DNA of 64,000 nucleotides from Halorubrum sp. F4 (GTDB lineage Archaea > Halobacteriota > Halobacteria > Halobacteriales > Haloferacaceae), in contig NZ_JAPDFS010000001.1 in assembly GCF_027257195.1 (NCBI RefSeq), positions 433,049-497,048 on the forward strand. Direction: 5' to 3'. How positions within the stretch are numbered: position 1 is the stretch's first letter; each line of letters starts with the position of its first letter. Below are positions 3,106-33,323 of this stretch, in pieces. The translations under genes and the position numbers were made by a program. The notes beneath the pieces were generated by a model. That model was not told where the DNA came from. It did no database searches and saw only the letters and a list, made by a program, of their open reading frames with translations.

Positions 3106-3891
3106 TTAGTCGCGCTCAGGGATGTTTCGAGAGCCGCGCTTGTGTTGCCACATCTCGTTCCGGTACGCGGACTCCCGGCTCCCCAGAATCGTCTTCGTCT
3201 TCTGGAGGGCCGCCTGCTCGTCCTCGTTCATCTCCTTCACGACCGCGTCCGAGATGATACCGTCGCGCTTGAACGGGATTGCCTGAATCAGCGGGGTTCC
3301 CGCCGGAATAACACCTGAGAACTCGGGGTCAGACCAGATGAACGGGAAGTTGATGTGGTTGTAATAGGAGTCGCAATCGACTACTCCCGAGAAGACCTGA
3401 AAGCGGCGCTCGATGCGGTTGAACGGCTTGGTGAACAGCACCGAATAGCCGTCGGGGACGTTGATGGCCCAGAAGTTGTGGAACTTCATAATCGGGGCCG
3501 GAAACGTCGGGAACTCGTCTCCCCCGACCTGCCCGTGGCTGTGGTTGCTAATCAGGTCGCGGTCGAAGCCCCATTGATAGTCCACGTTGCCCTCACCGTT
3601 CGAGTTGAACTGGACTTCCCCGGCGAGGGGGATAATCCAGCCCATCGAGAGGGCGTCGAGAAACGGAGCGCACCGCTTGACGGTGGACTGCTTGATGCCG
3701 TCGCCCATCCTGCCTTCGAGGTTCTTGTACCACTCTGGGAGAACCTTGTTGGCTGGAATCGGCTCGGGGATGGCCCCGTAGAGTTCCGGCTCCGTGGCGA
3801 ACTCGATGGTCGGGTCGTCTGTGTCGAGGGCCTTGAGAGAGGCCGCGTCCTTCACTTTCTCGATGCTTCCGAATAGGTCAAATGCTGTCAT
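3106..3891 (-). CDS. conserved phage-type hypothetical protein
   Basis: 261 residues. The series LPEWYKNLEG, TVKRCAPFLDALSMGWIIPL and a Trp/His/Phe-rich centre resembles a family of hypothetical proteins common in marine and other tailed phages; no function is known to me. No signal peptide or membrane segment is visible. The start codon is preceded by TAACCAGACCTA, a slightly degenerate copy of the early leader motif found before most early genes here. It ends a run with the TGT-like gene upstream (3901-4755), 9 nt away. Confidence 0.75.
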   Translation of the reverse strand: MTAFDLFGSIEKVKDAASLKALDTDDPTIEFATEPELYGAIPEPIPANKVLPEWYKNLEGRMGDGIKQSTVKRCAPFLDALSMGWIIPLAGEVQFNSNGEGNVDYQWGFDRDLISNHSHGQVGGDEFPTFPAPIMKFHNFWAINVPDGYSVLFTKPFNRIERRFQVFSGVVDCDSYYNHINFPFIWSDPEFSGVIPAGTPLIQAIPFKRDGIISDAVVKEMNEDEQAALQKTKTILGSRESAYRNEMWQHKRGSRNIPERD

Positions 3892-3900
3892 TAGGTCTGG

Positions 3901-4755
3901 TTAGTCCGCATACATTTCGTACATCCGAGACGGCGCTTCCTCTCCCGGCCCCCAACAGTCGGCGTCGGGGTGGGAGTCGTAGAAGGCCTCTTCGTAGTCG
4001 TGCTGTTCGTTCCGGGCGCGGGGCGACCATACCGAGCGGTCAGGGTTCAGGGCAAACCGCAGATTGCTATACGAACGCCGGACGCACTCGTAGTAGTCCG
4101 ACCGCTCGCTGGGGAGTTTCGTCCAGCCGTAGCCGTCGAAGTAGCCCATCCAGTTCGCCGCCGTTAGGGGGCTTGTGGTGTCGGCGCTCTCGACGGGAAC
4201 GCCATACTTCCGGGCCTGCGCCTGTTTCACCGGGGAGCCACCGAGTAAGTGGACTTCCGGGCAGTCACGGTAGGCCGTCCACGGGTGCGGACTCGGGCCG
4301 TACCGTTCTTGGCAGGGAAGGCCGACCCGATAGCGAGCCGGAACGTCGCGGGGGTGATGGAGTTTCGGGACAACGATAACAGTCTCCGCGTACTCCGCGA
4401 GGTCGGCGGCCCGGTCGAGAACCCACCCCCAACCGGGACTGTTCTCGTCGTCGTCCGGGGCGACCGCGTAACGGGGCTTCTCCGAGCGCACCGTCTTCTG
4501 GTGTTCTCGCCACGCTCCCTCTTCGTCGGGAACGGTCTGCTTCTTCAACTTCGAGAACGGCCAGTCCACGAAGTCCACATCGAACCGCTCCGGGGGGCGG
4601 TAGTTCATCGACTCGTAGCCGATTAGCGCCCCGACCCGCCACGCCGCTTCGGTAGCGTCGGCGGAACCACGGGCCGTGAAGACTACGTCGCGTTCCCGCT
4701 GGTTTGAGGTCGGTACAGATGTATCTCCTACGGGTAGTTTCTGCTGGGTACTCAT
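3901..4755 (-). CDS. putative TGT/DpdA-like protein (DUF6610-like)
   Basis: 284 residues. The centre carries VIVVPKLH, then a GLPCQERYG segment, HLLGGSP and VESADTTSP followed by AANWMGY. This order of short motifs (glycine-rich loop, then a Ser/Asp element) recalls the tRNA-guanine transglycosylase fold, including DpdA enzymes that put 7-deazaguanines into phage DNA, and haloarchaeal DUF6610 proteins. The catalytic residues cannot be assigned with certainty, so the enzymatic role is inference. It lies directly downstream of the DNA polymerase, which would suit DNA modification, but no deazaguanine-synthesis gene (QueC/D/E or FolE-like) is seen in the window. The start follows a perfect copy of the early leader motif. 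Confidence 0.5.
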   Translation of the reverse strand: MSTQQKLPVGDTSVPTSNQRERDVVFTARGSADATEAAWRVGALIGYESMNYRPPERFDVDFVDWPFSKLKKQTVPDEEGAWREHQKTVRSEKPRYAVAPDDDENSPGWGWVLDRAADLAEYAETVIVVPKLHHPRDVPARYRVGLPCQERYGPSPHPWTAYRDCPEVHLLGGSPVKQAQARKYGVPVESADTTSPLTAANWMGYFDGYGWTKLPSERSDYYECVRRSYSNLRFALNPDRSVWSPRARNEQHDYEEAFYDSHPDADCWGPGEEAPSRMYEMYAD

Positions 4756-4773
4756 TTGGGTCTGGTTAGGTGG

Positions 4774-7254
4774 TTAGAAGAACGCCCCGAGGCCGGTCTG
4801 GAGTTGGCCCTCAACGGCGGCTTCCACGTCGATGCCGACCGCGTCGAGGACGGGGCCGAGCGGGTTGATGATTAGGGTCTGGGTCATACGGCCCACGTCC
4901 GGCGTCAAGCCGGTGTTCTCGACCTGCTCGGCGTCCTCGTAGGCGATGCGGTCTATCTTCTCGCCCAGCGCGTCAACGTAGGTGGGCATAATGTAGCACC
5001 GCATCGGCTTGCTTCCCTTCGAGAACTCCGTGCCGAGGAGTTCGTTCGAGTTCATCGCGGCCTCGACGTGAGCCGTCGGGGAGTCGTACTCGTTGAACTC
5101 CTTGCCGATGCCGCCGGGGATACCGATGTTCTCCCAGTCGGGGTCGTCGGGGTCGAGCGAGGTTCCCGCCTGATAGACGTAGTTGGCTATCTCGTTGTTG
5201 TCCTTGTCGTGGAGGATGGCCTTGATGACCTTCTTCTCGGTGTCCCGAGTGAGGCGGGAAGCATCCGACCGCTTTGCGGCAGACCCCTTGATGGAGATAT
5301 CGTACTGGTCGAGGGAGTCGGAGAAGTCCATCCCCTCCTTCCACGAGGCCGCGTAGGCGTACTTCTTCTTGCGGCCCCATTGGAAGAACCGGGGCGCGAA
5401 CATCTCAATCTCAATCTCCCAGAGGTTATCCTCGGCGGGGACGCCCATCGTCTCCGCGAGGGCCGGGTAGACCTCGTTGTTCAGGGTGTCGCAAATCTCC
5501 TGTGCGGCTTCGAGGCAGGACTCCTGCCGCATATTCCTCGGGAATCTGATATAGTTGCTGTCCGTGTCGCCATATATCACCTCCGCGATAGTTTCTTCGT
5601 TGACGTAGCGGGCGGTCTCCTTGAGAACCGCCTGCCCGGCGAGGGTGATAGCCTCTGCTGTCTTGCGGTCGTAGAGGAAGAACTTAGACCAAGCCAAAAC
5701 GCCGTAGATTGAGTTGGTGATTGTCTTACTAACCTGATACATTTCTGCGTATCTTTCCTCTTCATCTGAACCCGGTTCCGCCTCCCGCTTGAGGCGCTTG
5801 TAGGTCATCTTGAGGTCAAGGGCGTCGTCAACGATTTGCCGGAAGAGGCCATCCCGCTCCAGCGAGAACGCCTGCCCGTTCGGAGCGACCGCGACCTTCC
5901 CGAGTTCCGGCTCCGTCGCGTCGAGTTTCACCTCGGGCGACGTGTTCAGCATCTTCATCGTCGCCGGGTACAGGCTCGCCAAGTCAATTCCGACGACGTT
6001 GGTGGCCTTCCCGGTGTACGGCTCAACAACAAAGCCCCCTTCGTAGTCTTCTGCGTTCGAGTGGGTCTTCGTCGGGCCGACCTCGCCGCGCTCGTCCAGT
6101 TTGCGGCGAACCATCATCTCGATGAACTGGAAGTTCTCTCGGGTGTCCTCGAAGTCCACGCCGACCATCTTTCGCAGGGAGTCGCGGAAGGAGACCACAC
6201 CGGCCTCCTCGTCAATCCCGGCGGTGAGGCGAACGTCCCGAGCGTTGTAGTTCATCAACTTCTCGGGGTTGTCCCGCCACATCTCGAAGTACCCTTCCTC
6301 GTGGGCCAGTTTCGACGCGCCCAGTTCTTCGCCCGCCACGTAGTCGAGCGAGTAGGAGCGGAGTTCGCCCCACGAGTTCTTCTTGTAGGCGTGGAGCAGG
6401 TCGTAGACCGTCCGGCCCAGAATCTTCGGGTCGCCGCGCCGGGTGACGTGGGCGTTCCCCTCGGGGGAGAGCCGGGAGGGGTGCGCCGAGACCTTCTTCA
6501 TCCGCTCGATGGTGTACGGCCCGTCGAAGGGAGCGTTCCACGCGGTGAGCAGGTCGGGGTTGCGCTCTTCGACCCACTCCCCGAAATTGATGAGCATAAC
6601 GCGCTCGTCGGGGAAGTAGTGGAGACGGTCAAGTTCCTCCGGCTTGCCGTTCGGGAAGCAGGTCTCGGAGGGCCTTCCCGCCGTGTCGAAGAAGCCGACG
6701 TACTCCCCCTCGTAGGAGTCGTAGGCGACCAGCGAGGTGATACGCTTCTCGCCCGGCTCGGGGAACGAGCCACGGTCGTCGGTCTCAATGTCGAACACGA
6801 CCACCCGAGGCCGGGGGTCGTTCTCGACGGGGGCCTCGATGGCCTCGACCTCGTCCAGAGTGACCTCTTCGGCGGGAACGCGAATCCACGCCTTCACATC
6901 GCGGTCGATTCGGACGCGCTGGGTGGGGTTTACGTCGGCCTCGAAGGTCTTGCCGTGGAACTCCTTTTTCGCGTCCCGAACGTCTCCGGGGGTGGTGACG
7001 TAGACGCAGGCGACCTCTTCACCGAAGAAGCCGGTGCGGTCAACGTCAAAGTCGAACTCCCGAATCCCGCACTCTCCGAGGAGTTCGTTCTTCCGCTCAC
7101 GGGCCTCAGCGGCCTCCACGTAGAAGTAGGGCCGGAAGTCCGTGATGGTCACCGTGTGTCGCTCCTCGTCGGCGTCGCGCCCGTAGAGGCGGAGCGTGAA
7201 GGAGTCGTCGTGGTTCTCGATACAGGCGGTGTTGGTGACGAGTATTTCGAGCAT
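4774..7254 (-). CDS. polB: family B DNA polymerase with 3'-5' exonuclease
   Basis: 826 residues, normal for a viral family B polymerase. The exonuclease part shows FDIETDD (residues 154-160), LLTAWNAPFDG (Exo II) and YNARDV (Exo III). The polymerase part shows GIDLASLYP (motif A, near 421), KTITNSIYGV (motif B, near 511) and YGDTDS (motif C, near 560, the two catalytic aspartates). All key acids are present, so the enzyme should be active in replication and proofreading. It follows the early leader motif at 7255-7268 and heads a run with the TGT-like gene. Together with the primase (13394-14605) and AAA-type ATPase (14614-16161) it forms a self-contained replication set. Confidence 0.97.
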   Translation of the reverse strand: MLEILVTNTACIENHDDSFTLRLYGRDADEERHTVTITDFRPYFYVEAAEARERKNELLGECGIREFDFDVDRTGFFGEEVACVYVTTPGDVRDAKKEFHGKTFEADVNPTQRVRIDRDVKAWIRVPAEEVTLDEVEAIEAPVENDPRPRVVVFDIETDDRGSFPEPGEKRITSLVAYDSYEGEYVGFFDTAGRPSETCFPNGKPEELDRLHYFPDERVMLINFGEWVEERNPDLLTAWNAPFDGPYTIERMKKVSAHPSRLSPEGNAHVTRRGDPKILGRTVYDLLHAYKKNSWGELRSYSLDYVAGEELGASKLAHEEGYFEMWRDNPEKLMNYNARDVRLTAGIDEEAGVVSFRDSLRKMVGVDFEDTRENFQFIEMMVRRKLDERGEVGPTKTHSNAEDYEGGFVVEPYTGKATNVVGIDLASLYPATMKMLNTSPEVKLDATEPELGKVAVAPNGQAFSLERDGLFRQIVDDALDLKMTYKRLKREAEPGSDEEERYAEMYQVSKTITNSIYGVLAWSKFFLYDRKTAEAITLAGQAVLKETARYVNEETIAEVIYGDTDSNYIRFPRNMRQESCLEAAQEICDTLNNEVYPALAETMGVPAEDNLWEIEIEMFAPRFFQWGRKKKYAYAASWKEGMDFSDSLDQYDISIKGSAAKRSDASRLTRDTEKKVIKAILHDKDNNEIANYVYQAGTSLDPDDPDWENIGIPGGIGKEFNEYDSPTAHVEAAMNSNELLGTEFSKGSKPMRCYIMPTYVDALGEKIDRIAYEDAEQVENTGLTPDVGRMTQTLIINPLGPVLDAVGIDVEAAVEGQLQTGLGAFF

Positions 7255-7272
7255 TTGGGTCTGGTTGGGTGG

Positions 7273-7677
7273 TTAGTACGCGGCGTGGTTCTCCCACGTT
7301 CGAGCGGCGAAAGAGACGGGAACGCACGTCTGGGGGTCGCCCGGCTCGTCGGTGGTGTCGATTCCGTGGTCTCGGAAGTCCTTGATGTGGTACTCGTAGA
7401 CCGTCCGGGTGTCTTCCTCGGCTATCAGGACGGTGTTGACGCCCTTCCGGTCGAGGTAGTCGATGATGTGGTCGGAGACTGCGTAGCCACGATGCTTCCG
7501 GTAGAAGTGTTCTTCTCGGGTTCTCTTTGAGAGGTACGCGACCTCGTCTCTCCCCCTGAGAACACCGACCGTCCCGGCTACCCCGTGCATCTCGGGGGCC
7601 GGGACACGAATATGCCGCCGGGGCTGGTGTTTCAGTATCGGCGCTTCAACGTCCTCGTAGTCGAATAGGTTGGTCAT
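7273..7677 (-). CDS. hypothetical protein upstream of polB
   Basis: 134 residues, not recognised. The N-terminal half contains GVAGTVGVLRGRDEVAYLS and the centre GVNTVLIAEEDTRTVYEY, suggesting an alpha/beta fold; no catalytic motif stands out. It sits 18 nt before polB in the same direction and probably shares its transcript. A promoter-like block (7707-7747) lies upstream and a variant of the early leader motif (CAATCAGACCCA) lies 6 nt before the ATG. Confidence 0.7.
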   Translation of the reverse strand: MTNLFDYEDVEAPILKHQPRRHIRVPAPEMHGVAGTVGVLRGRDEVAYLSKRTREEHFYRKHRGYAVSDHIIDYLDRKGVNTVLIAEEDTRTVYEYHIKDFRDHGIDTTDEPGDPQTCVPVSFAARTWENHAAY

Positions 7678-7706
7678 CTCTCTGGGTCTGATTGGTCTCT
7701 GGATTT

Positions 7707-7747
7707 ACGCCTCGCTTCCTGCCGCTTTCATACATTTTCAGACTCAG
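7707..7747 (-). promoter_or_regulatory. candidate early promoter (GTATGAAAGCGGC block)
   Basis: On the minus strand this reads GAGTCTGAAAATGTATGAAA followed by GCGGCAGGAAG. Nearly the same block occurs at 22205-22245 and, more loosely, at 23868-23905 and 16208-16245, each upstream of a minus-strand early gene. The AT-rich core lies about 25-35 nt upstream of the leader motif, the spacing expected of an archaeal TATA box from its transcription start. The promoter role is inference. Confidence 0.5.
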
Positions 7748-7756
7748 GAAGGGCCG

Positions 7757-8725
7757 TTACAGGTTCATCTTCCGCATCGCGTAGGTCACGTAGTTCGACT
7801 TCGTACCGAGTTCCTGCGCGATTTCGTGGGGCGTCATACCGGCGTCCAGCATCTCCTTCAATTGGTCGTCGTGTTTCAGGGCTTCTCCCCACGTCGAGGA
7901 GCAGATATCGTAGTAGGAGCATTGCTCGTCCCGGCCCGGCCCCCACTTGCAGAGCGGGGTCTCGTTGATGGGCCAATGCGGCTCGTCAGCCTCCATCATA
8001 TCCAGCATCTCGCTGATGGTCTCGTAGATGAAGTCCCGGCGAGACTCCTTGAGGGGGCTGATAATCAGGTCGTCCCCCTTGGGGTAGTACCCAGCGACCG
8101 CTGTTACGTCCCACTCCTGCTCGAACAGGACGGCGTAGTATTCGCCTTCGAGGTAGATGCCCTCGTCGCGGTACTGCTTCTTGGGGGTCTTCCCGGTCTT
8201 GAAGTCCGTGATGACCACTCCCCCGGCGGGTTCGACGCCGGGAACGGAGCGGTCGTCGTAGATGGCGTCCGCGTACCCCATCCACGATGGCTGTCGGCCC
8301 TCCCTGTCCGGTAGGGGGTCTTCCAGCCACGACTCCGCCTCGATGCCGACCGGGAGCCACGTCTCAGGGTCGGGTGAGACCTCCATCCGGGCGTACTCGA
8401 AGTTGATGAAGTTCGTGATGTACGGCTCCAGATAGTCGGCCCACCTGTCCCACTCCGGCAGGAAGGCGACGAGGTCTTCGGGGAACTCCCCGGTCTCGTT
8501 GACGTAGGCCTCGACGGCGTAGTAGTAGTCTTCCAGCACCTCGTGGATGATGGTTCCGCGCCGGGTGTAGATGGTTCCCGGCTCCTTGAGGCCCTGAACG
8601 TAGGAGTACCGGAACTGCTCGGGGCACTTCACGTACTTCGTCAGCCGACTCTTGCTGATATACGGGAGTTCACCTTTCGGGGTGCTGTCACGCAGGCTCG
8701 TCAGTCGGTCACTCTGGGTTGGCAT
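7757..8725 (-). CDS. PD-(D/E)XK nuclease, Cas4/RecB-like, with iron-sulfur cysteines
   Basis: 322 residues. Seen: SKSRLTKYVKCPEQF at the N-terminus (first cluster cysteine near 34), RRGTIIHEVLEDYY (conserved His near 61), an acidic ADAIYDD, VITDFKTGK (the D-x-K of the nuclease core near 170), a following Q/E-Y-Y element, and a C-terminal trio of cysteines in CKWGPGRDEQCSYYDIC. This is the Cas4/AddB-type 4Fe-4S nuclease plan. The last 45 residues form a likely helix-turn-helix (MTPHEIAQELGTKSNYVTYA), unusual for the family. The role is probably DNA end resection in viral recombination or replication. Its start overlaps the end of 8709-8966 by 17 nt, implying coupled translation. Confidence 0.9.
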   Translation of the reverse strand: MPTQSDRLTSLRDSTPKGELPYISKSRLTKYVKCPEQFRYSYVQGLKEPGTIYTRRGTIIHEVLEDYYYAVEAYVNETGEFPEDLVAFLPEWDRWADYLEPYITNFINFEYARMEVSPDPETWLPVGIEAESWLEDPLPDREGRQPSWMGYADAIYDDRSVPGVEPAGGVVITDFKTGKTPKKQYRDEGIYLEGEYYAVLFEQEWDVTAVAGYYPKGDDLIISPLKESRRDFIYETISEMLDMMEADEPHWPINETPLCKWGPGRDEQCSYYDICSSTWGEALKHDDQLKEMLDAGMTPHEIAQELGTKSNYVTYAMRKMNL

Positions 8726-9447: not shown

Positions 9448-9471
9448 TTGGGTCTGGTTGGTAAGGGGTGT

Positions 9472-9780: not shown

Positions 9781-9790
9781 CAAGTGAAAT

Positions 9791-11252: not shown

Positions 11253-11304
11253 TTGGGTCTGGTAGGAGAGAGGAAACACCGGGTTTCCGTTGAATAAGGT
11301 CGTC

Positions 11305-11766
11305 TTATTGTACGTCGGGTTCTGCGGGCTGGGCTTCCATAATGGCGGGAATCCCGGTTCCCCCATCACCGCCGCATCGCCCGTCGAAGTGGTCTTCTGG
11401 GAGCATCATCGGCGCGTCGCCGCTAATGACGACACCGCACTCGTCGTCCTCACAAACAACTTCTCCCCGACTGTCGTGCCACCCCGGAGAACCGCACTCC
11501 GGGCATCCCATCGTGTAGTGAAACACCTCTTTTAGAAGCGTGTTCGGGCCGTACAGGCCGGGGTACATCTCCCACTCACACTCGTCTATATCACACAGCG
11601 GACAGACCACGGCCACCTCGCCGTCGTCCCCGTGTGCGGGTTTCATATGGTCTTCCAGTTCGCGGTCACATTGCCACGAGGCCGTGTGATAGTCGAATAC
11701 AAGTCGGGAGCGGATATCGGTAATCTCGAATTTATCTGCGCGGACGCCTTCGTTGTGAGCGGACAT
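11305..11766 (-). CDS. multi-zinc-ribbon protein with a TFIIB-ribbon-like segment
   Basis: 153 residues with three cysteine clusters: CPLCDIDEC near 55, CPECG near 88 and CEDDECGVVISGD near 106. The stretch from CPECG through RGEVVC to CGVVIS closely follows the B-ribbon of archaeal TFB, the zinc domain that contacts RNA polymerase, although the second pair is spaced C-x4-C. There is no cyclin domain in this gene; a cyclin-fold TFIIB-like protein is encoded separately at 18872. A role in redirecting transcription is inference. The ATG follows AACCTCACCTAA, a weak leader motif. Confidence 0.7.
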   Translation of the reverse strand: MSAHNEGVRADKFEITDIRSRLVFDYHTASWQCDRELEDHMKPAHGDDGEVAVVCPLCDIDECEWEMYPGLYGPNTLLKEVFHYTMGCPECGSPGWHDSRGEVVCEDDECGVVISGDAPMMLPEDHFDGRCGGDGGTGIPAIMEAQPAEPDVQ

Positions 11767-16161: not shown

Positions 16162-16207
16162 TTGGGTCTGGTTGGTTTGGTTACGCCTCGGTTCTCTCTC
16201 GGGACAG

Positions 16208-16245
16208 CGCCGCCGCTATTTCATTGCGCTATTTCATACTCCTAT
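16208..16245 (-). promoter_or_regulatory. possible early promoter with tandem ATGAAATAGCG
   Basis: The minus strand holds GTATGAAATAGCGC then AATGAAATAGCGGC, two related 12-nt units, about 45-75 nt before the ATPase start and just before its leader motif. They resemble the block at 7707. Possibly a TATA element with an operator. Confidence 0.35.
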
Positions 16246-16483: not shown

Positions 16484-16540
16484 TAGGGTCTGGTTGCTTG
16501 TTCTAAGTGAAGGAGGGCCGCGTCAGCGAGTGTTACGCGC

Positions 16541-17527: not shown

Positions 17528-17619
17528 TTTGGGTCTGGTTGCGTCTGGTTGTCTTCTGTCGGGCGGTACTGCTCTCGGTGGGGTACTGACTATCTGAGTT
17601 TCTTGGGTCACCCCAAAGG

Positions 17620-17677: not shown

Positions 17678-17749
17678 TTACCGTGGCCGCTCATAGAGGC
17701 CAATCAGAGTAGAGAGAGGTTGTTCTGTCGGGGGAGGCGTATCCCCGAG

Positions 17750-17853
17750 TGGAGACGACAGGATTTGAACCTGCGTCTGGGCATCTTTTCTTATCCGGTG
17801 ACGTTTCTCATCGTCACCCGTGCCCCGTGATGGGCCGCTATCACTACGTCTCC
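17750..17853 (-). tRNA. tRNA-like cloverleaf with ~30-nt insert in the anticodon loop
   Basis: Minus strand: acceptor GGAGACG/CGTCTCC with discriminator A, D-stem GTGA/TCAC with GG in the loop, anticodon stem GGGCA/TGCCC, T-arm GCAGG-TTCAAAT-CCTGT. The anticodon loop is 37 nt instead of 7 and holds a perfect 7-bp hairpin (GGTGACG/CGTCACC), as an archaeal tRNA intron would. If the intron sat at the usual 37/38 site, position 33 would not be U, so I cannot name the anticodon; it may be a non-standard intron or a decayed gene. It lies near a LAGLIDADG-type gene (18040-18588). Confidence 0.6.
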
Positions 17854-18039: not shown

Positions 18040-18588
18040 TTACCAGTCCACGCCGAGTTCGTCGGCCACGGTCTCGGCGTCGTACTTCTTGTGTCCGCCG
18101 CCACGCTGGAAGCCCGCTTCTTGGACGCTGTCGAGCATCGACGCGAGTTCAACCATCCCCTCCGCCGTCCGGTGGCGGCCCTCGTCCAGAAGGGGGAACA
18201 CGTCTTCCAGCAGTATCTCGACCTGCTCGTGGCGGGCTACCACGAACGGGCCGACTGCCTCCAGAAAGCCCCGAACGTCGTCGCGGCGGGTGAGCCGAAC
18301 ACGGTAACGCTCCGAGCCATCGTCCCGGTCGAAGACGCTTGCCTTGGGGTCGAGGCCGAGGTCTTCGCAGAACTCGTCCAGCAGGCCCGCCGCTTCCGGG
18401 CTGGCCTTCTCGAACTTCACCTCGAAGGAGACCTCGAAGCCGTGTTTGGAAGACCCCTTCTTGCGGAGGGAGGCCTGTAAGTTGCCGCCCCAGTCTAAGG
18501 CACCTGCCGCATACGGCCCCCTCCAGTCGTTTTCGGCCATCTCTATACCACTCTCTGCCACCGACACGCTTAATACTGTCTCTGTCAT
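18040..18588 (-). CDS. LAGLIDADG-type homing-endonuclease-like protein
   Basis: 182 residues. GPYAAGALDWGGNLQ at residues 25-39 is a LAGLIDADG helix followed by a first beta strand; SFEVKF, then LLDEFCEDLGL, YRVRLTRRDDVRGFLE and HEQVEILLED follow the order of a single-domain LAGLIDADG fold. The catalytic acid (D after L in ALDWGG) is kept. Such proteins either cut DNA or act as non-cutting DNA/RNA binders. It lies 190 nt from an intron-bearing tRNA-like gene, but is not inside it. A second ATG at 18540 would remove 16 residues. Confidence 0.7.
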   Translation of the reverse strand: MTETVLSVSVAESGIEMAENDWRGPYAAGALDWGGNLQASLRKKGSSKHGFEVSFEVKFEKASPEAAGLLDEFCEDLGLDPKASVFDRDDGSERYRVRLTRRDDVRGFLEAVGPFVVARHEQVEILLEDVFPLLDEGRHRTAEGMVELASMLDSVQEAGFQRGGGHKKYDAETVADELGVDW

Positions 18589-18847: not shown

Positions 18848-18865
18848 CACCAGACCCAAATGTGA
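18848..18865 (+). promoter_or_regulatory. plus-strand leader motif followed by a start-stop ATGTGA
   Basis: CCACCAGACCCAA is followed directly by ATG TGA, then CAGCAA and the real ATG at 18872. This is the leader motif on the plus strand with a one-codon open frame between it and the gene. Ribosomes starting at the first ATG would stop at once and could reinitiate 7 nt later. Seen directly; any regulatory effect is inference. Confidence 0.6.
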
Positions 18866-20857: not shown

Positions 20858-20929
20858 AGTCTGGTTAGTCGCCCTCACCGTAGGCTAATAGTCGTCTCTC
20901 ACGCTCGCAGAGGGCTTAATTGCTCCGCT

Positions 20930-22186: not shown

Positions 22187-22204
22187 TGTTGGGTCTGGTC
22201 GGTT

Positions 22205-22245
22205 GCTTCGCTTCTCGCCGCTTTCATACATATTTCAGACTCGGG
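22205..22245 (-). promoter_or_regulatory. candidate early promoter (GTATGAAAGCGGC block, copy 2)
   Basis: Minus strand GAGTCTGAAATATGTATGAA then AGCGGCGAGAAGCG. The AT-rich core is 45 nt before the ATG at 22186. With the usual 25-nt offset the transcript would start at or just before the leader motif. Confidence 0.5.
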
Positions 22246-22267
22246 AAGGGGCGTTACTCGTCGCCGT

Positions 22268-22633: not shown

Positions 22634-22649
22634 AGTTGGGTCTGGTTGG

Positions 22650-23260: not shown

Positions 23261-23279
23261 AATGGGTCTGGTTGGGTGG

Positions 23280-23842: not shown

Positions 23843-23914
23843 TGTTGGGTCTGGTTGGTTGATTGCCGCTCGATGCCGCCCGCCCTTTCATAGATATTTC
23901 AAACTACGGCGGGG

Positions 23915-24241
23915 TCAGCCGAGGTAGTAAACGAACGTCGATTCGTCGTCTACGGGGCTGAACACGGTGGTTCCGGTAGCGTAGTAGGGAATTTCCACGT
24001 CGGAGTGGTCACCGAGACCGAAGATTCGCTCCTCGATGGTGAACTCGTTTCCTCCACCGGCTCCGCTGGGTCTTTCATCGGCGTCGTTCGGGACAAGGTA
24101 GGAGACCGTCACGGACTGCTCGAACGGAGTCAGCGGGTGGATACTGATACCGACTGAATGGTACGGGACGGTCACAATCTCTCCAACGATAGCCGTCTGG
24201 GTCTCTATACGGTACTTCTCTGGGTCTAACTGTAATGTCAT
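23915..24241 (-). CDS. hypothetical beta-rich protein
   Basis: 108 residues from the ATG at 24241. Alternating hydrophobic strands (TVPYHSVGISIHPL, SVTVSYLVPND, DVEIPYYATGTTVF) suggest a beta-sandwich. A leader motif (ACCAGACCCAGA) lies 13 nt upstream, farther than usual, with AGTACCAAGAT between. The recurrent GTTCCTGC element and one arm of the 43-bp repeat lie further upstream. Confidence 0.65.
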   Translation of the reverse strand: MTLQLDPEKYRIETQTAIVGEIVTVPYHSVGISIHPLTPFEQSVTVSYLVPNDADERPSGAGGGNEFTIEERIFGLGDHSDVEIPYYATGTTVFSPVDDESTFVYYLG

Positions 24242-24315
24242 ATCTTGGTACTCTGGGTCTGGTAGTCCCAACAGGAGAGTCGGGGTTCCTGCTGGATTGG
24301 GGAAGCCGAATAGGG

Positions 24316-24529: not shown

Positions 24530-24530
24530 A

Positions 24531-24940: not shown

Positions 24941-25016
24941 AGTTGGGTCTGGTTGGTTCAATCGTGCCTGCCCGTCCCCCGAAGGGGGTCATCGGCAACG
25001 GTACGGGGAAGGGGTC

Positions 25017-25952: not shown

Positions 25953-25967
25953 TTTGGGTCTGGTTGG

Positions 25968-26303: not shown

Positions 26304-26830
26304 TATGCGTCCTCAACACGAATCCGCGCTCGGCAACAGCCCGAGCGGTACGGGCCGGGGTTCTCCACGATTTTCGACCGCTTGAATCGGGGCGTCTTCT
26401 TGCCGCAGGCCTCGCAGACGAGGAACCATCGGGCTTCGTCGTCAGCGAACGTCGGGCAATGCCGGGGCGCGGCGAGTTCTCGGGCCTTCCGCTTGAACGT
26501 CGGGCCGTGACTCCCTTTTCCGTGGGTTTCGTACTCCCAGATGTGGACGAGTTCGTGGCGAATCGTCCCCTCGAAGTCGTCGCCCCAGCCCCACGACTGG
26601 TACGCCTTCCACGCGAACCTCATAAAGAGGTCACCGTTCTTCTTCCCCGCTTTCCCCGCCGCCCGCTTGAGTCGCTTTGAGACTTGAATCTCGACCTCGT
26701 CAAGCGGTACGTCTATGTCCACGGTCTCGGCGTAGGCCCGAATCACCCCCTTGAGTTCATTTGGAGATAGGCCGTCTCCGGGCCGCTCGAACTGTTCATC
26801 GTCGTCGGTATCAGGTAGTCGGAACGTCAT
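26303..26830 (-). CDS. SprT-like zinc metalloprotease
   Basis: 175 residues. TIRHELVHIWEYETHGKGSHG gives HExxH with a third His, the SprT/Spartan active site, near residue 92. A C-terminal zinc ribbon follows (CEACGKKTPRF and GCCRARIRV). SprT-like proteins cut proteins crosslinked to DNA or act in DNA repair; the role in this virus is unknown. The start follows a perfect leader motif. Confidence 0.85.
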   Translation of the reverse strand: MTFRLPDTDDDEQFERPGDGLSPNELKGVIRAYAETVDIDVPLDEVEIQVSKRLKRAAGKAGKKNGDLFMRFAWKAYQSWGWGDDFEGTIRHELVHIWEYETHGKGSHGPTFKRKARELAAPRHCPTFADDEARWFLVCEACGKKTPRFKRSKIVENPGPYRSGCCRARIRVEDA

Positions 26831-26877
26831 TTGGGTCTGGTTGGTTGCTGACGCTTGGTTGCCGTCGTCAGGCCCCC

Positions 26878-26920
26878 GAGTTCCACTCGGGAACGACGCC
26901 CCCAGAAGGGGCGTTTCGGC
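26878..26920. other. two GC hairpins in the gap before the SprT-like gene
   Basis: CCCCCGAGTTCCACTCGGG and CGCCCCCAGAAGGGGCG are adjacent hairpins between the end of 26922-27056 and the leader motif of 26303-26830. They may end transcription or protect mRNA ends. Similar CCCC-GAAG-GGGG hairpins recur at 24976 and across 30.6-32.1 kb. Confidence 0.4.
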
Positions 26921-26921
26921 T

Positions 26922-27056: not shown

Positions 27057-27178
27057 CGGTCGTCTCCCATCAGGTGGCCGTACTTCGTTTTCTCTCGGCG
27101 CTTCCGTCGCGCCTCTTTTTCGCCCGCCTGTTTAAGTTCGCGTTTCACGTCGTCTGGAAGGGTATCTTCGAGGTTCAT
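27053..27178 (-). CDS. 41-residue basic helical protein
   Basis: Starts MNLEDTLPDDVKRELKQAGE and then is rich in Lys and Arg. The ATG follows a degenerate leader motif (CCAACCAACCCAG). It may be a short nucleic-acid-binding helix. Function unknown. Confidence 0.55.
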   Translation of the reverse strand: MNLEDTLPDDVKRELKQAGEKEARRKRREKTKYGHLMGDDR

Positions 27179-27191
27179 CTGGGTTGGTTGG

Positions 27192-27788: not shown

Positions 27789-27842
27789 TTGGGTCTGGTC
27801 TCCGTGTTCCTCGGGCTGGTTACGCCGTCATCGGAAGCCCCG

Positions 27843-27896
27843 CCGGGGAATCGAACCCCGGAGCCGCCAATCAGGGCCGCGCCTTAATCGGGCGCG
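27843..27896 (-). ncRNA. tRNA-like element (T-arm plus hairpin)
   Basis: Minus strand: hairpin CGCGCC-CGATTAA-GGCGCG (7-nt loop) followed by a T-arm CCGGGG-TTCGATT-CCCCGG. I find no acceptor stem and no U33, so it is not a working tRNA. It lies in the gap upstream of 27192-27788, like the other tRNA-like elements. Confidence 0.45.
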
Positions 27897-27902
27897 AGTT
27901 GG

Positions 27903-28365: not shown

Positions 28366-28390
28366 TTGGGTCTGGTCGGTTACTCTGGTT

Positions 28391-28462: not shown

Positions 28463-28465
28463 CGG

Positions 28466-28690
28466 TTAGACGACACGCCGTGGGGAGAGTTCGTCTTCGA
28501 CCTCCAATACCAGCGGCTCGGAGTCAGTATCAATCGGGTTCTCCGCCGTGAAGAACACTCCCCAAGTGTCGTCGTCGTATTGGTGAAGGCTGTAAGCCTC
28601 CGTGTAGTTCTCGTCGTCGTCAAAGGCTTCGTTGAAGCCGATTACCGCTTCGTCCCACGTCTCAGCCGTCACAAGTAATTCGTATTTCAT
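28466..28690 (-). CDS. hypothetical protein
   Basis: 74 residues, MKYELLVTAETWDEAVIGFN, acidic, with DDDTWGVFFTAENP. It looks like a small alpha/beta domain. The ATG at 28690 is 2 nt after the stop of 28693-28833; a TTG two codons earlier is possible. Function unknown. Confidence 0.6.
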   Translation of the reverse strand: MKYELLVTAETWDEAVIGFNEAFDDDENYTEAYSLHQYDDDTWGVFFTAENPIDTDSEPLVLEVEDELSPRRVV

Positions 28691-28692
28691 TT

Positions 28693-28833
28693 TCAATCTC
28701 GTCGTCGGTCTCGCTCCGCCATCGCACGTCCCGCTTCGGCGTCCATCCCGCCCTTGACGTAAGCCCGGATGTGCTTCATCAGGTAGTCGTCGTTCAATCC
28801 TCGAAGGAACTCTCGGTGTTGCTCGGGGTTCAT
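28693..28833 (-). CDS. 46-residue protein
   Basis: MNPEQHREFLRGLNDDYLMK, then a basic end (MAERDRRRD). Short helical protein, coupled to the following gene. The ATG is 1 nt after the stop of 28835-29329. Function unknown. Confidence 0.6.
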   Translation of the reverse strand: MNPEQHREFLRGLNDDYLMKHIRAYVKGGMDAEAGRAMAERDRRRD

Positions 28834-28834
28834 T

Positions 28835-29329
28835 TTAGATACCCCCGACCGGGGCGGCGAGGCTCAGGGCCATACCGGCGAGCCGGTCGTCGCTTTCAAT
28901 CTCCTGCCAGCGTTCGACCTTGGCGAGAAGGCGCTCGCGTTCCTCGTCGGATTTGAAGCCCCAATGCCGAACCGCCGACTCAATCAGGGCGTCGAGGTCG
29001 TTCTTGAAGCAGGCCGAGCCGCGTTCACACCAGCATCCGTATCGGCGGCCTTCGGCCTCGATGGCCTCTCGGCCTTCCCGGTAATCGGAGACGTGGCGGG
29101 CGGCGTGGTACGGCCCGGCGTAGCCGATTGAATCCGAGACGATGGCGGCGATTAGTTCGGCATCCTCCATCGTGTCCGCTGTTAGCGTGTTCTGCTCTTC
29201 GGCGCAGTCGTTACACAGATTCTCGAAGTCGTCCTCGAACTCGAATTGTCGGTAGGTATCAGCGCCCCGAACCGAGGTCGAGTATTCGTTAACGTCACAG
29301 CAGTCGCACTTCGCAAGGCTAAGGTTCAT
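28835..29329 (-). CDS. zinc-binding protein of unknown function
   Basis: 164 residues. KCDCCDVNEY near the start with LCNDCAEEQ about 30 residues later forms a likely four-Cys zinc site; CWCERGSAC follows near residue 98. The rest is helical. The ATG follows a perfect leader motif. Role unknown. Confidence 0.65.
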   Translation of the reverse strand: MNLSLAKCDCCDVNEYSTSVRGADTYRQFEFEDDFENLCNDCAEEQNTLTADTMEDAELIAAIVSDSIGYAGPYHAARHVSDYREGREAIEAEGRRYGCWCERGSACFKNDLDALIESAVRHWGFKSDEERERLLAKVERWQEIESDDRLAGMALSLAAPVGGI

Positions 29330-29353
29330 TTTGGGTCTGGTTGGTGGGTTGGT

Positions 29354-29479
29354 TTACAGGCAGTCCGAATATCCGCAGGCTTCACAGCCGAACGCTCCGA
29401 GCGAAGCCATCCCCAATTGGATAGGTTCGTCTTCCCAGTAGGCGTCTTCGGCGTCGCAGTCTTCGGTGAAGTGGCACAT
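29354..29479 (-). CDS. 41-residue Cys-rich protein
   Basis: MCHFTEDCDAEDAYWEDEPI, ending FGCEACGYSDCL. The spread of cysteines (CEAC-x4-C) suggests a single zinc. It lies 1 nt from 29481-29651. Function unknown. Confidence 0.6.
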   Translation of the reverse strand: MCHFTEDCDAEDAYWEDEPIQLGMASLGAFGCEACGYSDCL

Positions 29480-29480
29480 T

Positions 29481-29651
29481 TTACTCGAAGAGGTCGTTCA
29501 TCACTTCGCCGTCCTGACGCCGCTCGCGCTCTTCAGCGAACGCCTCGCGGTTTCGGTTGTGGGTGATAAACAAGTCGTCGGGGGAAGGGTCAGCGGCCCC
29601 GCCGTAGGTCTGGTACGATTCCCGGTCGTCGCCGTCGTCGTAGTCACTCAT
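29481..29651 (-). CDS. 56-residue acidic protein
   Basis: MSDYDDGDDRESYQTYGGAA then a helical end (EAFAEERERRQDGEVM). The start at 29651 is set by a perfect leader motif 4 nt upstream. Probably partly disordered. Function unknown. Confidence 0.6.
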   Translation of the reverse strand: MSDYDDGDDRESYQTYGGAADPSPDDLFITHNRNREAFAEERERRQDGEVMNDLFE

Positions 29652-29684
29652 CGTTGGGTCTGGTTGGTTTTGGCCTAAAGGCCA

Positions 29685-29735
29685 AGAGCCGAGCCGGGAA
29701 TTGAACCCGGCGAGAAGCCCGCCGCCTTCTCGGCA
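29685..29735 (-). ncRNA. minimal tRNA-like element (acceptor-like stem, hairpin, T-arm)
   Basis: Minus strand GCCGAG pairs with CTCGGC around a hairpin (GAAGGCGGCGGGCTTC) and a T-arm (CCGGG-TTCAATT-CCCGG). There is no D-arm or anticodon arm of normal form. It lies about 30 nt upstream of the leader motif of 29481-29651. Confidence 0.45.
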
Positions 29736-29776
29736 AGCCGCCATCTAAACCCCGTAAGAGGTCTTATCCGTTTCGG

Positions 29777-29917
29777 TCAGAGGTCGGCGGGGTCGGAAAG
29801 CCCCCAGCCATTATGGAAGGCCAGCCGTTCGTCCATCTCGAAGTCCGGCTCAACGTCGGCGTTTCGGTCGTCAAGTGCTACGGCGTCGGTTTCGTCAGGG
29901 TCGTAATCGGTGAACAT
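29777..29917 (-). CDS. 46-residue acidic protein
   Basis: MFTDYDPDETDAVALDDRNA, ending AFHNGWGLSDPADL. A leader motif with one change (ACCAAACCCAA) directly precedes the ATG. Function unknown. Confidence 0.6.
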   Translation of the reverse strand: MFTDYDPDETDAVALDDRNADVEPDFEMDERLAFHNGWGLSDPADL

Positions 29918-29936
29918 TTGGGTTTGGTTGGTTGCT

Positions 29937-30518
29937 TCAGTTGTCGTCGTCCTTCAGGAGACCGGCCTCCTTCAGCGCCTTGTAAGCCTCGGCGGCTCGG
30001 GCTTCGCCAATCCCCGAGATACCTTCGAGGACTTCAGTAACGGTCGTTTCATCGGCGCTCACTTCGTACCACACCTCTTCGGGGGCTTCGTATTCGACAG
30101 GGACGAAGATGGGGTCTTCGTCGTCCCCGAAGTCGTCGGCGGGAAGGCCGAAGTCCTCGGCGGTCTCGGCGGTAATCACGTCGAAGTCCCCTTCGGGGGT
30201 CTCGAACTCGTCCTTGTATTCGGGAAGGTTCCCCGGTAGGTCTTGGCAGGTCTCCTTAAGCCCCGGCTCGTCGTCGGTGCCGTAGGCAATCGCCGCGAAG
30301 TGGCCGTAGTGGTCGGCCCACGGCGACTTACCGGAGTCCTTCACTTTTGCGACGCCGAGGGCCTTACACGACTTCTTAAGAAGTCGAACCATCGAGATGG
30401 CCTTCCAGTAGTCTTCATACTCTTCGATTCTTTCCCCACCGAAGGTGGTTTCGTCGTTGCTGTCGCTGTCGGTCTGGTTGTTAGCGGTGCTGTCGGTCTG
30501 GGTCGGGAGTTCAAACAT
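29937..30518 (-). CDS. early protein with C-terminal helix-hairpin-helix
   Basis: 193 residues. After a disordered Ser/Asn/Asp start, YEDYWKAISMVRLLKKSCKALG and a YGHFAAIAYGTD segment form a domain I do not recognise. The end, VLEGISGIGEARAAEAYKAL, is a classic helix-hairpin-helix for non-specific DNA binding. It is the first gene of the leftward early region and starts 5 nt after a perfect leader motif, right beside the non-coding control region. Confidence 0.7.
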   Translation of the reverse strand: MFELPTQTDSTANNQTDSDSNDETTFGGERIEEYEDYWKAISMVRLLKKSCKALGVAKVKDSGKSPWADHYGHFAAIAYGTDDEPGLKETCQDLPGNLPEYKDEFETPEGDFDVITAETAEDFGLPADDFGDDEDPIFVPVEYEAPEEVWYEVSADETTVTEVLEGISGIGEARAAEAYKALKEAGLLKDDDN

Positions 30519-32407
30519 TTGTTTGGGTCTGGTTGGTTTGTTTCACGTCCCTCAAGGGACGGAGCCAAGGTCATCGTCAAAGGCGAGGTAGGCTATTTCC
30601 CCGCGACAAGGCCTTTAGGGCCTTGTTTCGACCATTTTCTTTTCCCCCGAAGGGGGCTTTTGGGTAAGTTGGTTTCGTCGGCGGTTTTGTCCGTTTTCGC
30701 GGTTTCAAGCCACCAAAATCAAGTCCATTAACCCCCGCTTCGGGGGTTTTAGTACGACTTAATCCCGAAGGATAGGCTGGATAAGTCCCTTCTCCCGTCG
30801 CATATCCCGCCGACTTACCACGGGCTTAGAAAAGCCCGGAATAGTCGGGATTAACCCCCAGAAGGGGGCTTGCGCGAGGTACTACGGATAGATTAGCCTA
30901 ATCGCCGCTGGGTCGTATGATAATGGTGTTTTACCGTTTTCCGGTTAGTTAAACGTCCTAATCCCGGTTTACGGTCTCATAGGTAAACCCCGCCGTAGCC
31001 ACACGACGTATGGAACTTAGCACAATCCCCGGCGGGAAGGGTGCTAAGGGGGAATACCGGGCTTCTTAAGCCGGTTTTCGGCGTTACCCACTTTTACGTG
31101 CGTATGGGGGCTTAAAGCAAGGCTGGTTAACCGCCTTGCCGTCTTTGTCTCCCGAGGGAGACTGGATATGCTGGGGTTGCGCTATATTGTATTTTTCCGG
31201 TGATTGACGTTTCCGCCGAGTTTGGCCGCTAATACGACCGCACACACTACCCTTAGACGGTCTCAAGCCGTCAGTCAGACGCTTACGCGCCTTTAAGGGG
31301 GCTAAGCCGACCGATACTCCTTTTCTCGGGGGCTTCGGGAGCGTTTACCACACTTGCCCGGTGCCTTACCAGCATACCCACACTCTTGCCCCCGGCCTAC
31401 CCGACCGGCGGGGGCAAGCAAGTTGAAAATCCTCCAACCCCGAGGGGCCTTCATCGGCATCCTACCGTAAGACTGGGGAGTATATAAACTTGTCGTGGAC
31501 TCTGGAAACGCTGTCTGTGGGGGTTTGAGTAGGCCAAGCCCCCCGTCTCCAGATAGTTGACACTAAATCGTGTTATAGCATACCATAAAGAACCGTGACA
31601 TAGCCGTAGGGGGCTTGAGACCGCCGAGAAGGGGCCTTAGAACGGATATAGATATAAAGAGTCGTTGTGTTGGGTAGGCTGACAGGATGGGCGGAGGGTG
31701 ATGCGGGGGCGCTATTCCCGCCGCATAGGGCTTGAAACCGCCGTGAAAGGCCTTTGAAGGGTCACCGTGAAAGGGTCTCCGTGAACAATCGTGTACGTCC
31801 CTCCCGCGCCGTAGCCTGAAACCCCCGAATACTAACCCCTCGCGGCTTCTGTCGGCGTTTTAGGGTAGGCCGCCGAACGGCCCCCGTAGGGCATTACGCA
31901 TAGTAATATCTGGGTCATCTTATTTGAGTGTATCGACGCCCGAGAAGGGGCCTAACTGGGTGTTACTACTGGGTAGTAAGCAGGGTTGCTGGGTCGGGAG
32001 ACCGCCGGGAAGGGCCTTGAAAGGGCCTTGAAAGGCCGCATAAGCCCTTGAAAGGCCCCTACGGGGGTTATTACACCACTTGCTGGGCAGAATCCGATTT
32101 AATACGTTAGTTGCCTCGAAAATATCCAGATTTTGGGTATATGAACGGTCTTGAAAATAATTTCCTGAAATTCTCCGTGCGCGAAGGGCCTCTGCTCGGC
32201 TCACAGCAACGAGTTTATAGAATCAGCGACTCAAATCCGGTTGGTCGCTTGACGGCGACCGTCAAAGGGGCCTTGTCCGCTTGCCTACCACGGGGAAAGG
32301 CCCCTTTTCAGAAGTCGCCGGACTCTCCTACGCTTTAGGTGATATAAGGACTTGCTGTATAAGGAGTGTCAATCGCCCAACTCGGCGGGAACGGGGCGAG
32401 CCGGTGA
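30519..32407. other. 1.9-kb region without convincing genes, rich in short GC hairpins
   Basis: No frame over about 90 codons and none that looks like a protein. It contains many small hairpins of the type CCCCC-GAAG-GGGGG (30644, 30732, 30853) and repeated words such as CTTGAAAGGCC (around 32000-32060) and GGGCTTGARACCGCCG (31612, 31728). It lies between the leftward early and rightward late genes and just upstream of the terminase operon. An origin, packaging site or non-coding RNA region would all fit; none is proven. Confidence 0.6.
30731..30750 (+). terminator. hairpin followed by T-run
   Basis: ACCCCCGCTTCGGGGGTTTT: a 5-bp GC stem with a 5-nt loop followed by TTTT, a terminator-like structure on the plus strand. 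It stands in the non-coding control region. Confidence 0.4.
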
Positions 32408-32647
32408 TTAGTCGAGAGCAACAATCTCAGAGATTCCGTGCGTGGTGAGCGTGACCTCGTAGCCTTGATAGACGAACGACACTCGGATGGAAGAGCCGGG
32501 CTTCGGATTCTGTAATAGGTTTTCCAGCGCGTCAACGTCAATGACCTCTTGTATCGGTGGGTTGAGTTCGGTTGGGTCGGTGTCCTCGCGCTCGGAGACC
32601 TCCTCTATGGCCTCGTAAATTATTGAGTCAGTAGATGCACTATCCAT
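32408..32647 (-). CDS. HalOD1-domain protein
   Basis: 79 residues. IIYEAIEEVSEREDTDP, LNPPIQEVIDVDALENLL and VSFVYQGYEVTLTTHGIS follow the haloarchaeal output domain HalOD1 over its whole length. In host proteins this domain is often an output module of signal transduction; alone it may be a regulator. A TATA-like TTTTATG lies about 23-30 nt upstream of the ATG, so the transcript is probably leaderless. Confidence 0.85.
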   Translation of the reverse strand: MDSASTDSIIYEAIEEVSEREDTDPTELNPPIQEVIDVDALENLLQNPKPGSSIRVSFVYQGYEVTLTTHGISEIVALD

Positions 32648-32670
32648 TATGAGAAGTTCAGGGCAGGCAA

Positions 32671-32680
32671 CATAAAAGAG
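32671..32680 (-). promoter_or_regulatory. TATA-like box for the HalOD1 gene
   Basis: Minus strand CTCTTTTATG, about 24 nt from the ATG at 32647. The spacing matches an archaeal promoter with a leaderless transcript. Confidence 0.5.
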
Positions 32681-32773
32681 TCAGGAAGTAGGAAGCGCGT
32701 TCCTGCCGCTCTCGGCTCGGTGAGGGTACACAGATTTTATCGGAGGATAGGTTCTATTCGCCAAGGAGACCTA

Positions 32774-33049
32774 ATGAGAGAGCATCCGCCGGAGTACGAC
32801 ATTGCTGACCGAGAAGAGGGCGATGACATACTTGCTCGGGGCGACGTGGTCACTCACAACGGGAAGGAGGTCAAAATCTACGACTTCGAGGAGGAGATAG
32901 TGTACGTCGATGAGGACGGCGAGCCGTCGAGGAGTCTCGCGGTGTACCACTACTTCCTCGATGACTTCTCTGGGGACATTGACGAGGTGCCGAAGAAGTA
33001 CGTCCAGTCCCTCGAAGTCGGGAACTTCCTGAATCTAATGGATATCTGA
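32774..33049 (+). CDS. hypothetical acidic protein
   Basis: 91 residues from the ATG at 32774, which has AAGGAGA 5 nt upstream, a real Shine-Dalgarno site and rare in this window. A TATA-like ATTTTATC lies at about 32732. The protein is acidic with GDVVTHNGKEVKIYDFEEEI, likely a small SH3-like barrel. It is divergent from the HalOD1 gene. Function unknown. Confidence 0.65.
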   Translation: MREHPPEYDIADREEGDDILARGDVVTHNGKEVKIYDFEEEIVYVDEDGEPSRSLAVYHYFLDDFSGDIDEVPKKYVQSLEVGNFLNLMDI

Positions 33050-33137
33050 GTATGGAAAGTGGGGGCGTTGGGTAACCAGCCCTGCGACGCGCCCCCGGTC
33101 GCCGTCTGAGTTGACCTTGGGGGCCAACCAGACCCAA

Positions 33138-33323
33138 ATGTGGGCCTCCGTAACCAGCGGAGTGCCCGTGCTGAGAGAAGGTGTCGGGGTACTAAAAGCG
33201 TTCCGTGGAGCGCCCAGAAGTATGCTTCTCTGTTCTCACACAACGGCTATAATAGCAGACGGCGTACCGATTAATCGTAACGGGAGAGACACGGCGACCG
33301 CCCGCTTGCCTACTACGGGGTAG
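33138..33323 (+). CDS. possible small protein after a plus-strand leader motif
   Basis: 61 residues, MWASVTSGVPVLREGVGVLK at the start. The protein is not typical of haloarchaea (few acidic residues), so coding is doubtful. The reason to list it is the perfect leader motif CCAACCAGACCCAA at 33124-33137 abutting the ATG. Confidence 0.35.
   Translation: MWASVTSGVPVLREGVGVLKAFRGAPRSMLLCSHTTAIIADGVPINRNGRDTATARLPTTG

Follow-up and report, generated by a model that had tools for sequence, protein, structure and literature searches.

A motif abutting the start codons of uncoupled early genes in a haloarchaeal tailed provirus, a candidate translation-start signal

How haloarchaea start the internal, uncoupled cistrons of an mRNA without a Shine-Dalgarno (SD) sequence is an open question. 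In Haloferax volcanii, the SD is described as unused in 5′ untranslated regions and the distal genes that follow gaps of 10-39 nt as devoid of a conserved motif (PMC3986360), and coupled haloarchaeal genes are served by termination-reinitiation (PMC12542753). Start signals other than the SD are known, such as the AT-rich ribosome binding sites of the FCB group and Bacteroides, which have been suggested to be kept in non-coding gaps and not in 4-nt overlaps (PMC9581028). Among haloviruses, HF1 and HF2 carry a hammerhead ribozyme, HHphage, close upstream of an early start codon, and a transcript 5′ end was mapped to within 3 nt of its cleavage site (PMC3088659); the repeated intergenic words of HF2 are promoters of 29-58 bp with a TATA element (PMC8707807). 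Here we describe a 12-nt motif, AACCAGACCCAA, that directly precedes start codons in a tailed provirus of Halorubrum sp. F4. It lies in the window, i.e. the whole 64,000-nt stretch analysed (G000:C1:433049-497048 of a 3.28 Mb haloarchaeal assembly), where early genes occupy the minus strand from about 3.1 to 30.5 kb and late genes the plus strand from 33.7 kb onward.

The motif resembles the Bacteroides sites in being a non-SD signal ahead of the start, but it is an A/C-rich, high-information word found in one virus lineage and one gene class, where it exists in dialects. A hammerhead close upstream of an early start codon occurs here as in HF1 and HF2, except that the start motif comes after it and that the window holds one match only. 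As for the HF2 repeats, both are conserved intergenic words in related viruses of the same family; the HF2 words are promoters, however, and their four class I patterns are absent from the window, the class II word CCCTTTAC being present only at 2903 (plus strand) and 59788 (minus strand), outside the early region. In a search confined to open-access PMC literature, PMC12542753, PMC7230728 and PMC8651126 among it, we found no earlier description of a start-adjacent motif of this kind.

At no more than one mismatch, the motif has 26 matches in the window, whereas 100 dinucleotide shuffles gave 0.27 on average and never more than 2, which confirms the conserved leader that the initial annotation had reported at early starts. 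Indeed, 21 of these matches lie at minus-strand starts named there, one is a tandem copy (17539-17550), one (18848, plus strand) lies 12 nt upstream of a plus-strand gene and one (33126, plus strand, previously placed at 33124) precedes a 61-codon open reading frame (ORF). Only two were found away from gene starts, at 33526-33537, absent from the initial annotation and without a following ATG, and at 37028-37039, antisense to a late gene. The 25 minus-strand starts listed as strong include 13 with an exact copy, eight with one mismatch and two with two (7677 and 24241), whereas the copies at 27178 (degenerate, four mismatches) and 20857 (truncated to TAACCAGACT) are poor; at 11766 and 13167, where weak forms had been proposed, the window has very weak ones, although the orthologue of 13167 in the relative G053 has a perfect copy. 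With the two poor copies counted, the starts that keep the consensus base number, from position 1 to position 12, 19, 25, 24, 24, 25, 22, 23, 25, 24, 22, 23 and 21 of 25. Among the 23 good copies, 22 leave a spacer of -1 to 4 nt before the ATG, and the one at 24241 leaves 11 nt (0-6 and 13 nt had been proposed), in an alignment that allowed overlap with the ATG, as needed for 3891. Motif-like words with two mismatches also occur within genes, at 30479, 22174 and 4884. All 15 exact copies in the host assembly lie inside this provirus, and the 20 copies of ACCAGACCCAA (either strand) all fall within C1:437-467 kb, which is the provirus, as against 0 to 2 per genome in 52 other genomes of the genus. 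The word CAGACCCA stands in the 22 nt before the first ATG of ORFs of at least 60 codons in 18 of its 24 copies (0.47 expected), and in a test for words enriched before starts the window gave a non-SD word with a corrected E of 3e-19.

The distribution of the motif follows gene class. Gene prediction with a caller that had learned codon use, and was thus blind to the motif, gave 44 minus-strand early genes, which we took as coupled when they overlap the upstream stop codon or follow it within 8 nt, and as carrying the motif when a copy with at most two mismatches lies within 26 nt of the start. The motif was found at none of the 14 coupled genes and at 20 of the 30 uncoupled ones (Fisher P = 3.4e-5); it was also found at none of the 34 late genes, 18 of which are uncoupled. 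In ten of the motif genes the gap to the upstream called gene is 9-24 nt and is nearly filled by the stop codon, the motif and the start codon, and in the others it is at least 52 nt or there is no called gene upstream. The proposed rule that a cistron begins either by coupling or by the motif thus holds, though not without exceptions, which fall among the ten uncoupled genes without a called motif. On individual inspection of these ten, the motif overlaps the ATG at 3891, the copy at 27178 is degenerate, the start called at 11366 lies upstream of 11252, which carries the motif, and 28264 overlaps an uncalled 34-codon ORF and counts as coupled. The calls at 18540 and 19959 look spurious or cut, and 9858, 10845, 13167 and 24475 are real or possible exceptions. 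A start-stop was observed at 18848, where the motif is directly followed by ATG-TGA and the ATG of gene 18872 lies 6 nt past the TGA. This start-stop is kept in L019 and L010, i.e. in three proviruses with that of the window, and would suit a signal by which ribosomes are brought to the ATG next to it and then re-initiate further downstream; other readings are possible.

Like an SD ribosome binding site, the motif is a short word a few nucleotides before the start codon of independently started cistrons of a polycistronic mRNA; unlike it, it has no GGAGG-type word and touches the ATG. The usual SD spacing to the start codon is 5-9 nt, and 22 of the 23 good copies fall short of it. An SD-like word was found in one of 25 motif leaders as compared to three of 14 coupled starts. 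The initial annotation was right that the motif has no complementarity to the anti-SD, and we extended the comparison to the rest of the 16S rRNA, from the same genus as none was found in this 96% complete assembly, and to the provirus host's own 23S rRNA. The best pairing of the 12-mer anywhere in the 16S was matched by 55% of shuffles, and pairing with the 23S was no better than that of shuffled motifs, so that rRNA pairing was rejected as the reading mechanism. An antisense host RNA with at least 11 matched bases was likewise rejected, since all 20 copies of ACCAGACCCAA in the incomplete (96%) assembly belong to the provirus. The predicted mean unpaired probability around motif starts is 0.70, versus 0.44 at random positions, 0.48 at coupled starts and 0.54 at late starts.

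We consider it somewhat probable (about 0.55), from the sequence comparisons, that the motif is an RNA-level translation-start element for uncoupled early cistrons. Since the SD is unused in H. volcanii leaders and the uncoupled viral early genes have no other visible signal, the motif would be their start signal. Whatever precedes it, be it a bare stop codon, a promoter-like block or a ribozyme, the word stays locked to the ATG, which argues for a role at the RNA level. The stretch from about -12 to -1 of an mRNA lies in the E site and exit channel of the initiating small ribosomal subunit, and this is the stretch that the motif would occupy. There it would raise initiation and let the ribosome start early cistrons that termination-reinitiation cannot reach. 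The motif may be recognized directly by the ribosome or initiation factors, or by a fast-evolving, perhaps viral, factor, the turnover of the word between viruses favouring the latter. A protein kept bound beside the AUG would block the subunit, so that a bound factor would have to hand over or join the initiation complex.

The turnover of the word goes beyond what the initial annotation had described. Among the phage records searched, the portal, the DNA polymerase and a conserved 515-amino acid protein of the provirus are closest to those of Halorubrum tailed virus 25 (HRTV-25; 67.6, 60.8 and 49.6% identity, respectively), whose record is classified in Hafunaviridae, Laminvirus. We counted a word as placed when no more than 8 nt separate it from an ATG that begins a frame of 30 codons or longer, and the figures that follow are placed, all sense-strand and antisense copies. 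For CCAGACCC they are 19/22/1 in the window, and four close relatives carry the same motif: G053 (19/25/2), L009 (7/8/0), G364 (15/17/1) and the Halospeciosus flavus provirus (L019 and L032; also G055 and, by the same coordinates, G225; 22/28/2). HRTV-25 and the provirus of G013 have no CCAGACCC and use TACCCAACC instead (10/10/0 and 5/5/0), as found also in G390 (6/11/2). In G316 both kinds are few (2/5/0 and 1/2/0) and mixed leaders such as ACCAGACCCAACCA occur, the provirus of G300 has CTGAACCC (7/8/0) and HRTV-27 has AACTACC (6/15/1; weak, corrected E 0.001). None of these four words was placed more than once in G271, L042, G262 and HRTV-5.

This distribution agrees with the tree of the 515-amino acid protein, in which the five CCAGACCC viruses group together (100/100) and HRTV-25 groups with G013 (99/97), joined by their sister G316 (100/100); G300 and HRTV-27 have long branches and pair with uncertainty. 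At orthologous starts one word takes the place of another: the DNA polymerase gene begins with AACCAGACCCAA-ATG in the window and with CTACCCAACC-ATG in HRTV-25. Of the window starts, 18 have an HRTV-25 hit; when the leaders were read by eye, that of HRTV-25 showed ACCCAAC at 11 of them, and at some of the other seven the hit stops short of the start. The dialects have a core, ACCCAA, in common, and this core and the A/C bias would be compatible with direct reading by the ribosome. A more specific version of the translation-start reading, which we offer tentatively from these comparisons and hold at a lower probability, is a private viral start code: a virus-encoded or reprogrammed factor would read a clade-specific word that touches the AUG in place of the SD, and word and reader would co-evolve into the dialects CCAGACCC, TACCCAACC and CTGAACCC.

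The same word test gave other results in other haloviruses, of which 80, 60, 60 and 40 kb were covered for HGTV-1, HVTV-1, HCTV-1 and HHTV-2. An SD-type word leads in HCTV-1 (GGAGGT, corrected E 0.003) and, without significance, in HVTV-1 (0.06) and phiH1 (0.14); HHTV-2 gave TAGCAGG (7e-4), HGTV-1 gave GGTGATT (0.02), and HFTV1 and HRTV-4 gave no significant start word. At no more than one mismatch, the motif itself was absent from seven of eight records of other halovirus families and present once in phiH1.

We then compared the sequences upstream of the motif. In 47 sites drawn from L009, L010 and the window, of which a few do not belong to genes, the AT content is flat over 100 nt, except at the motif's own edge. 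The best AT-rich 8-mer at -50 to -23 of the ATG was not above background, either at the 10 short-gap sites (P = 0.92) or at the 15 long-gap sites (P = 0.40), in a test that scored base content in place of a true TATA matrix; an AT-rich block is present at some individual sites. TATA-driven leaderless starts were thus rejected as a general reading, and the proposed link between the motif and predicted transcript starts was not borne out as a rule, though some long-gap sites do have a promoter-like block. A paired TGAAA block lies 27-75 nt upstream of the ATG at 13 of 77 sites in four viruses, orthologues included, which form a subset of the long-gap sites; such blocks may be promoters or possibly an RNA-binding element. 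They resemble TCTGAAATATGTATGAAAGCGGC and were seen in the window at about 7726-7740, 16219-16236, 22222-22237 and 23886-23901 (minus strand), and also in HRTV-25. A second common block, GCAGGAACnCCGACTCTCCT, lies upstream of the motif genes 24241 and 28365 (minus strand) and also occurs in L010.

Type II hammerhead matches were found shortly upstream of early genes in five related genomes. That of the window (RF02276, 53.2 bits against a gathering score of 37) is separated by 10 nt from the motif of gene 26830 downstream, the two of G053 end 9 and 12 nt before a motif copy and its ATG, and the one of HRTV-25 precedes its own A/C leader, AACCAAACCCAAACTA-ATG. If the predicted ribozymes cut, the motif of those mRNAs would sit inside a leader. 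The annotated start of HRTV-25 gp107 lies in the ribozyme core (L021 29536), and its start is likely the ATG after the A/C-rich leader. A hammerhead-like fold suspected by eye before gene 30518 had no Rfam match at E <= 5.

The initial annotation had left three options, of which the translation-initiation element is the best supported and an RNA-processing site persists as a rival; the promoter-proximal signal is disfavoured by the flat AT profile, the lack of AT-rich enrichment and the ten sites squeezed into gaps of 9-24 nt. As the initiator of a leaderless promoter, with a TATA about 26 nt upstream, the motif would be in keeping with the paired TGAAA blocks of some long-gap sites and with the HF2 repeats, whose conserved part spans the start site (PMC8707807), yet the HF2 class I words are missing, the class II substring lies outside the early region and a hammerhead match stands directly upstream at 26830, all of which makes a promoter element very improbable. 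We regard as unlikely, if more plausible than that, that the motif is cut by an endoribonuclease, so that every uncoupled cistron would become a leaderless mRNA. Haloarchaeal ribosomes start readily on leaderless mRNA, and in 22 of the 23 good copies no more than 4 nt lie between the end of the motif and the ATG; the motif also stays outside the upstream coding sequence (smallest gap 9 nt), save for the stop codon at 3891, so that a cut would spare the upstream gene, and the ribozyme and tRNA-like matches suggest that these viruses process their transcripts. However, no RNase candidate was identified, the ATG-TGA after one copy makes no obvious sense as a leaderless start, and the intragenic words with two mismatches would be cut if such mismatches were tolerated.

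A repressor or nuclease acting on early translation would leave a similar pattern. In T4, one factor, RegA or RegB, binds or cuts at many early start regions, and here one viral protein could shut early starts off late in infection. The restriction to early genes, the overlap with the ribosome site and the turnover between viruses, as expected of the site of a viral protein, agree with such an operator, but the motif starts would then be left with no other visible initiation signal; no RegA or RegB appeared in the Pfam scan of 20 early proteins, a scan made without a dedicated homologue search. We find this operator improbable. It is also rather improbable, and slightly more so, that the motif lacks a specific reader and is either just an A/C-rich leader free of structure or a repeat that was copied along the genome and marks gene boundaries or serves recombination. 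Its high predicted accessibility, the tandem copies and the late leaders, often G-poor and pyrimidine-rich with no one common word, would agree with this; the word is nevertheless precise, with an internal G in 22 of 25 sites, it recurs at orthologous starts even though the viruses share only about 67-82% nucleotide identity where they align, and it is exchanged as a whole in sister clades.

Several observations weigh against a translation-start element. The late genes of the same virus do without the motif, which is thus not needed for initiation as such. Its low predicted pairing may be explained by A/C composition alone, and its spacer (-1 to 4 nt, once 11) varies more than a contact fixed by geometry might need. 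Cleavage or the binding of a repressor at the start codon would account equally well for most of the evidence. No significant start word was found in three of eight further provirus loci (G271, G262 and G043). In 15 word-tested loci out of 19, L009, L010 and L041 were strongly positive and L056 gave AGAGAA (corrected E 0.003), while the start word was not significant in the remaining 11; the relatives without a significant one include L042, L043, L045, L049, L050, L052, L053, L055 and L057. No protein with a known translation role appeared among the 20 early proteins scanned with Pfam, of about 44 called: six had any family, four of them over the curated cut-off (DUF6610, PDDEXK_1, DUF6378 and SprT-like), and a TFIIB zinc-ribbon match at 11305-11766 was below its cut-off.

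One high-information word at just the starts that have lacked an explanation offers a concrete, mutable test sequence, and the dialects are natural swaps for finding its reader. With the motif as a guide, misplaced start codons in the annotation of these viruses could also be corrected by a simple rule.

Table 1. Motif copies and hammerhead matches (window coordinates unless a locus is named).
Feature	Position	Strand	Remark
Motif copy AACCAGACCTAA	3891..3902	-	Ends on the A of the ATG; begins inside the stop codon of the upstream gene
Exact motif before ATG 4755	4756..4767	-	
Exact motif before ATG 7254	7255..7266	-	Family B DNA polymerase gene
Motif, 2 mismatches, before ATG 7677	7682..7693	-	
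Exact motif before ATG 9447	9448..9459	-	
Motif, 1 mismatch, before ATG 11252	11253..11264	-	
Exact motif before ATG 16161	16162..16173	-	
Motif, 1 mismatch, before ATG 16483	16484..16495	-	
Tandem motif pair before ATG 17527	17529..17550	-	
Motif, then ATG-TGA start-stop	18848..18859	+	Start-stop at 18860-18865; 12 nt before gene start 18872
Truncated motif before ATG 20857	20858..20867	-	
Motif, 1 mismatch, before ATG 22186	22189..22200	-	
Exact motif before ATG 22633	22636..22647	-	
Motif, 1 mismatch, before ATG 23260	23262..23273	-	
Exact motif before ATG 23842	23845..23856	-	
Motif, 2 mismatches, before ATG 24241	24253..24264	-	11 nt before the ATG
Exact motif before ATG 24940	24943..24954	-	
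Exact motif before ATG 25952	25954..25965	-	
Exact motif before ATG 26830	26831..26842	-	10 nt 3′ of hammerhead match
Type II hammerhead ribozyme match 5′ of gene 26830	26853..26921	-	RF02276, 53.2 bits
Degenerate motif before ATG 27178	27179..27191	-	
Motif, 1 mismatch, before ATG 27788	27789..27800	-	
Motif, 1 mismatch, before ATG 28365	28366..28377	-	
Exact motif before ATG 29329	29331..29342	-	
Exact motif before ATG 29651	29654..29665	-	
Motif, 1 mismatch, before ATG 29917	29918..29929	-	
Exact motif before ATG 30518	30523..30534	-	
Exact motif before 61-codon ORF	33126..33137	+	Gene status unsure
Orphan exact motif, no ATG after	33526..33537	-	CTG directly 3′, then a frame of about 11 codons
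Hammerhead match in relative	L030 11714-11780		
Hammerhead match in relative	L030 12667-12737		
Hammerhead match in relative	L032 16868-16936		
Hammerhead match in relative	L021 29522-29595	-	
Hammerhead match in relative	L023 35997-36064	-	

The uncoupled late genes, at 33.7-57.8 kb on the plus strand, often have C/U-rich, G-poor leaders, e.g. CTCTCTAC before the ATG, and no 8-mer has four or more pre-ATG copies in the late region. Further along, 59.6-60.0 kb aligns with part of the HRTV-25 integrase gene. ARAGORN found no tRNA in the window. There are tRNA-like pieces upstream of motif genes at 17747-17818 and 27836-27878 (minus strand; tmRNA model, 24 bits, and mascRNA model, 22 bits, both below the gathering score), a third, at about 29680-29720 (minus strand), was spotted by eye, and a full tRNA match lies at L019 8349-8422 in the Halospeciosus provirus.

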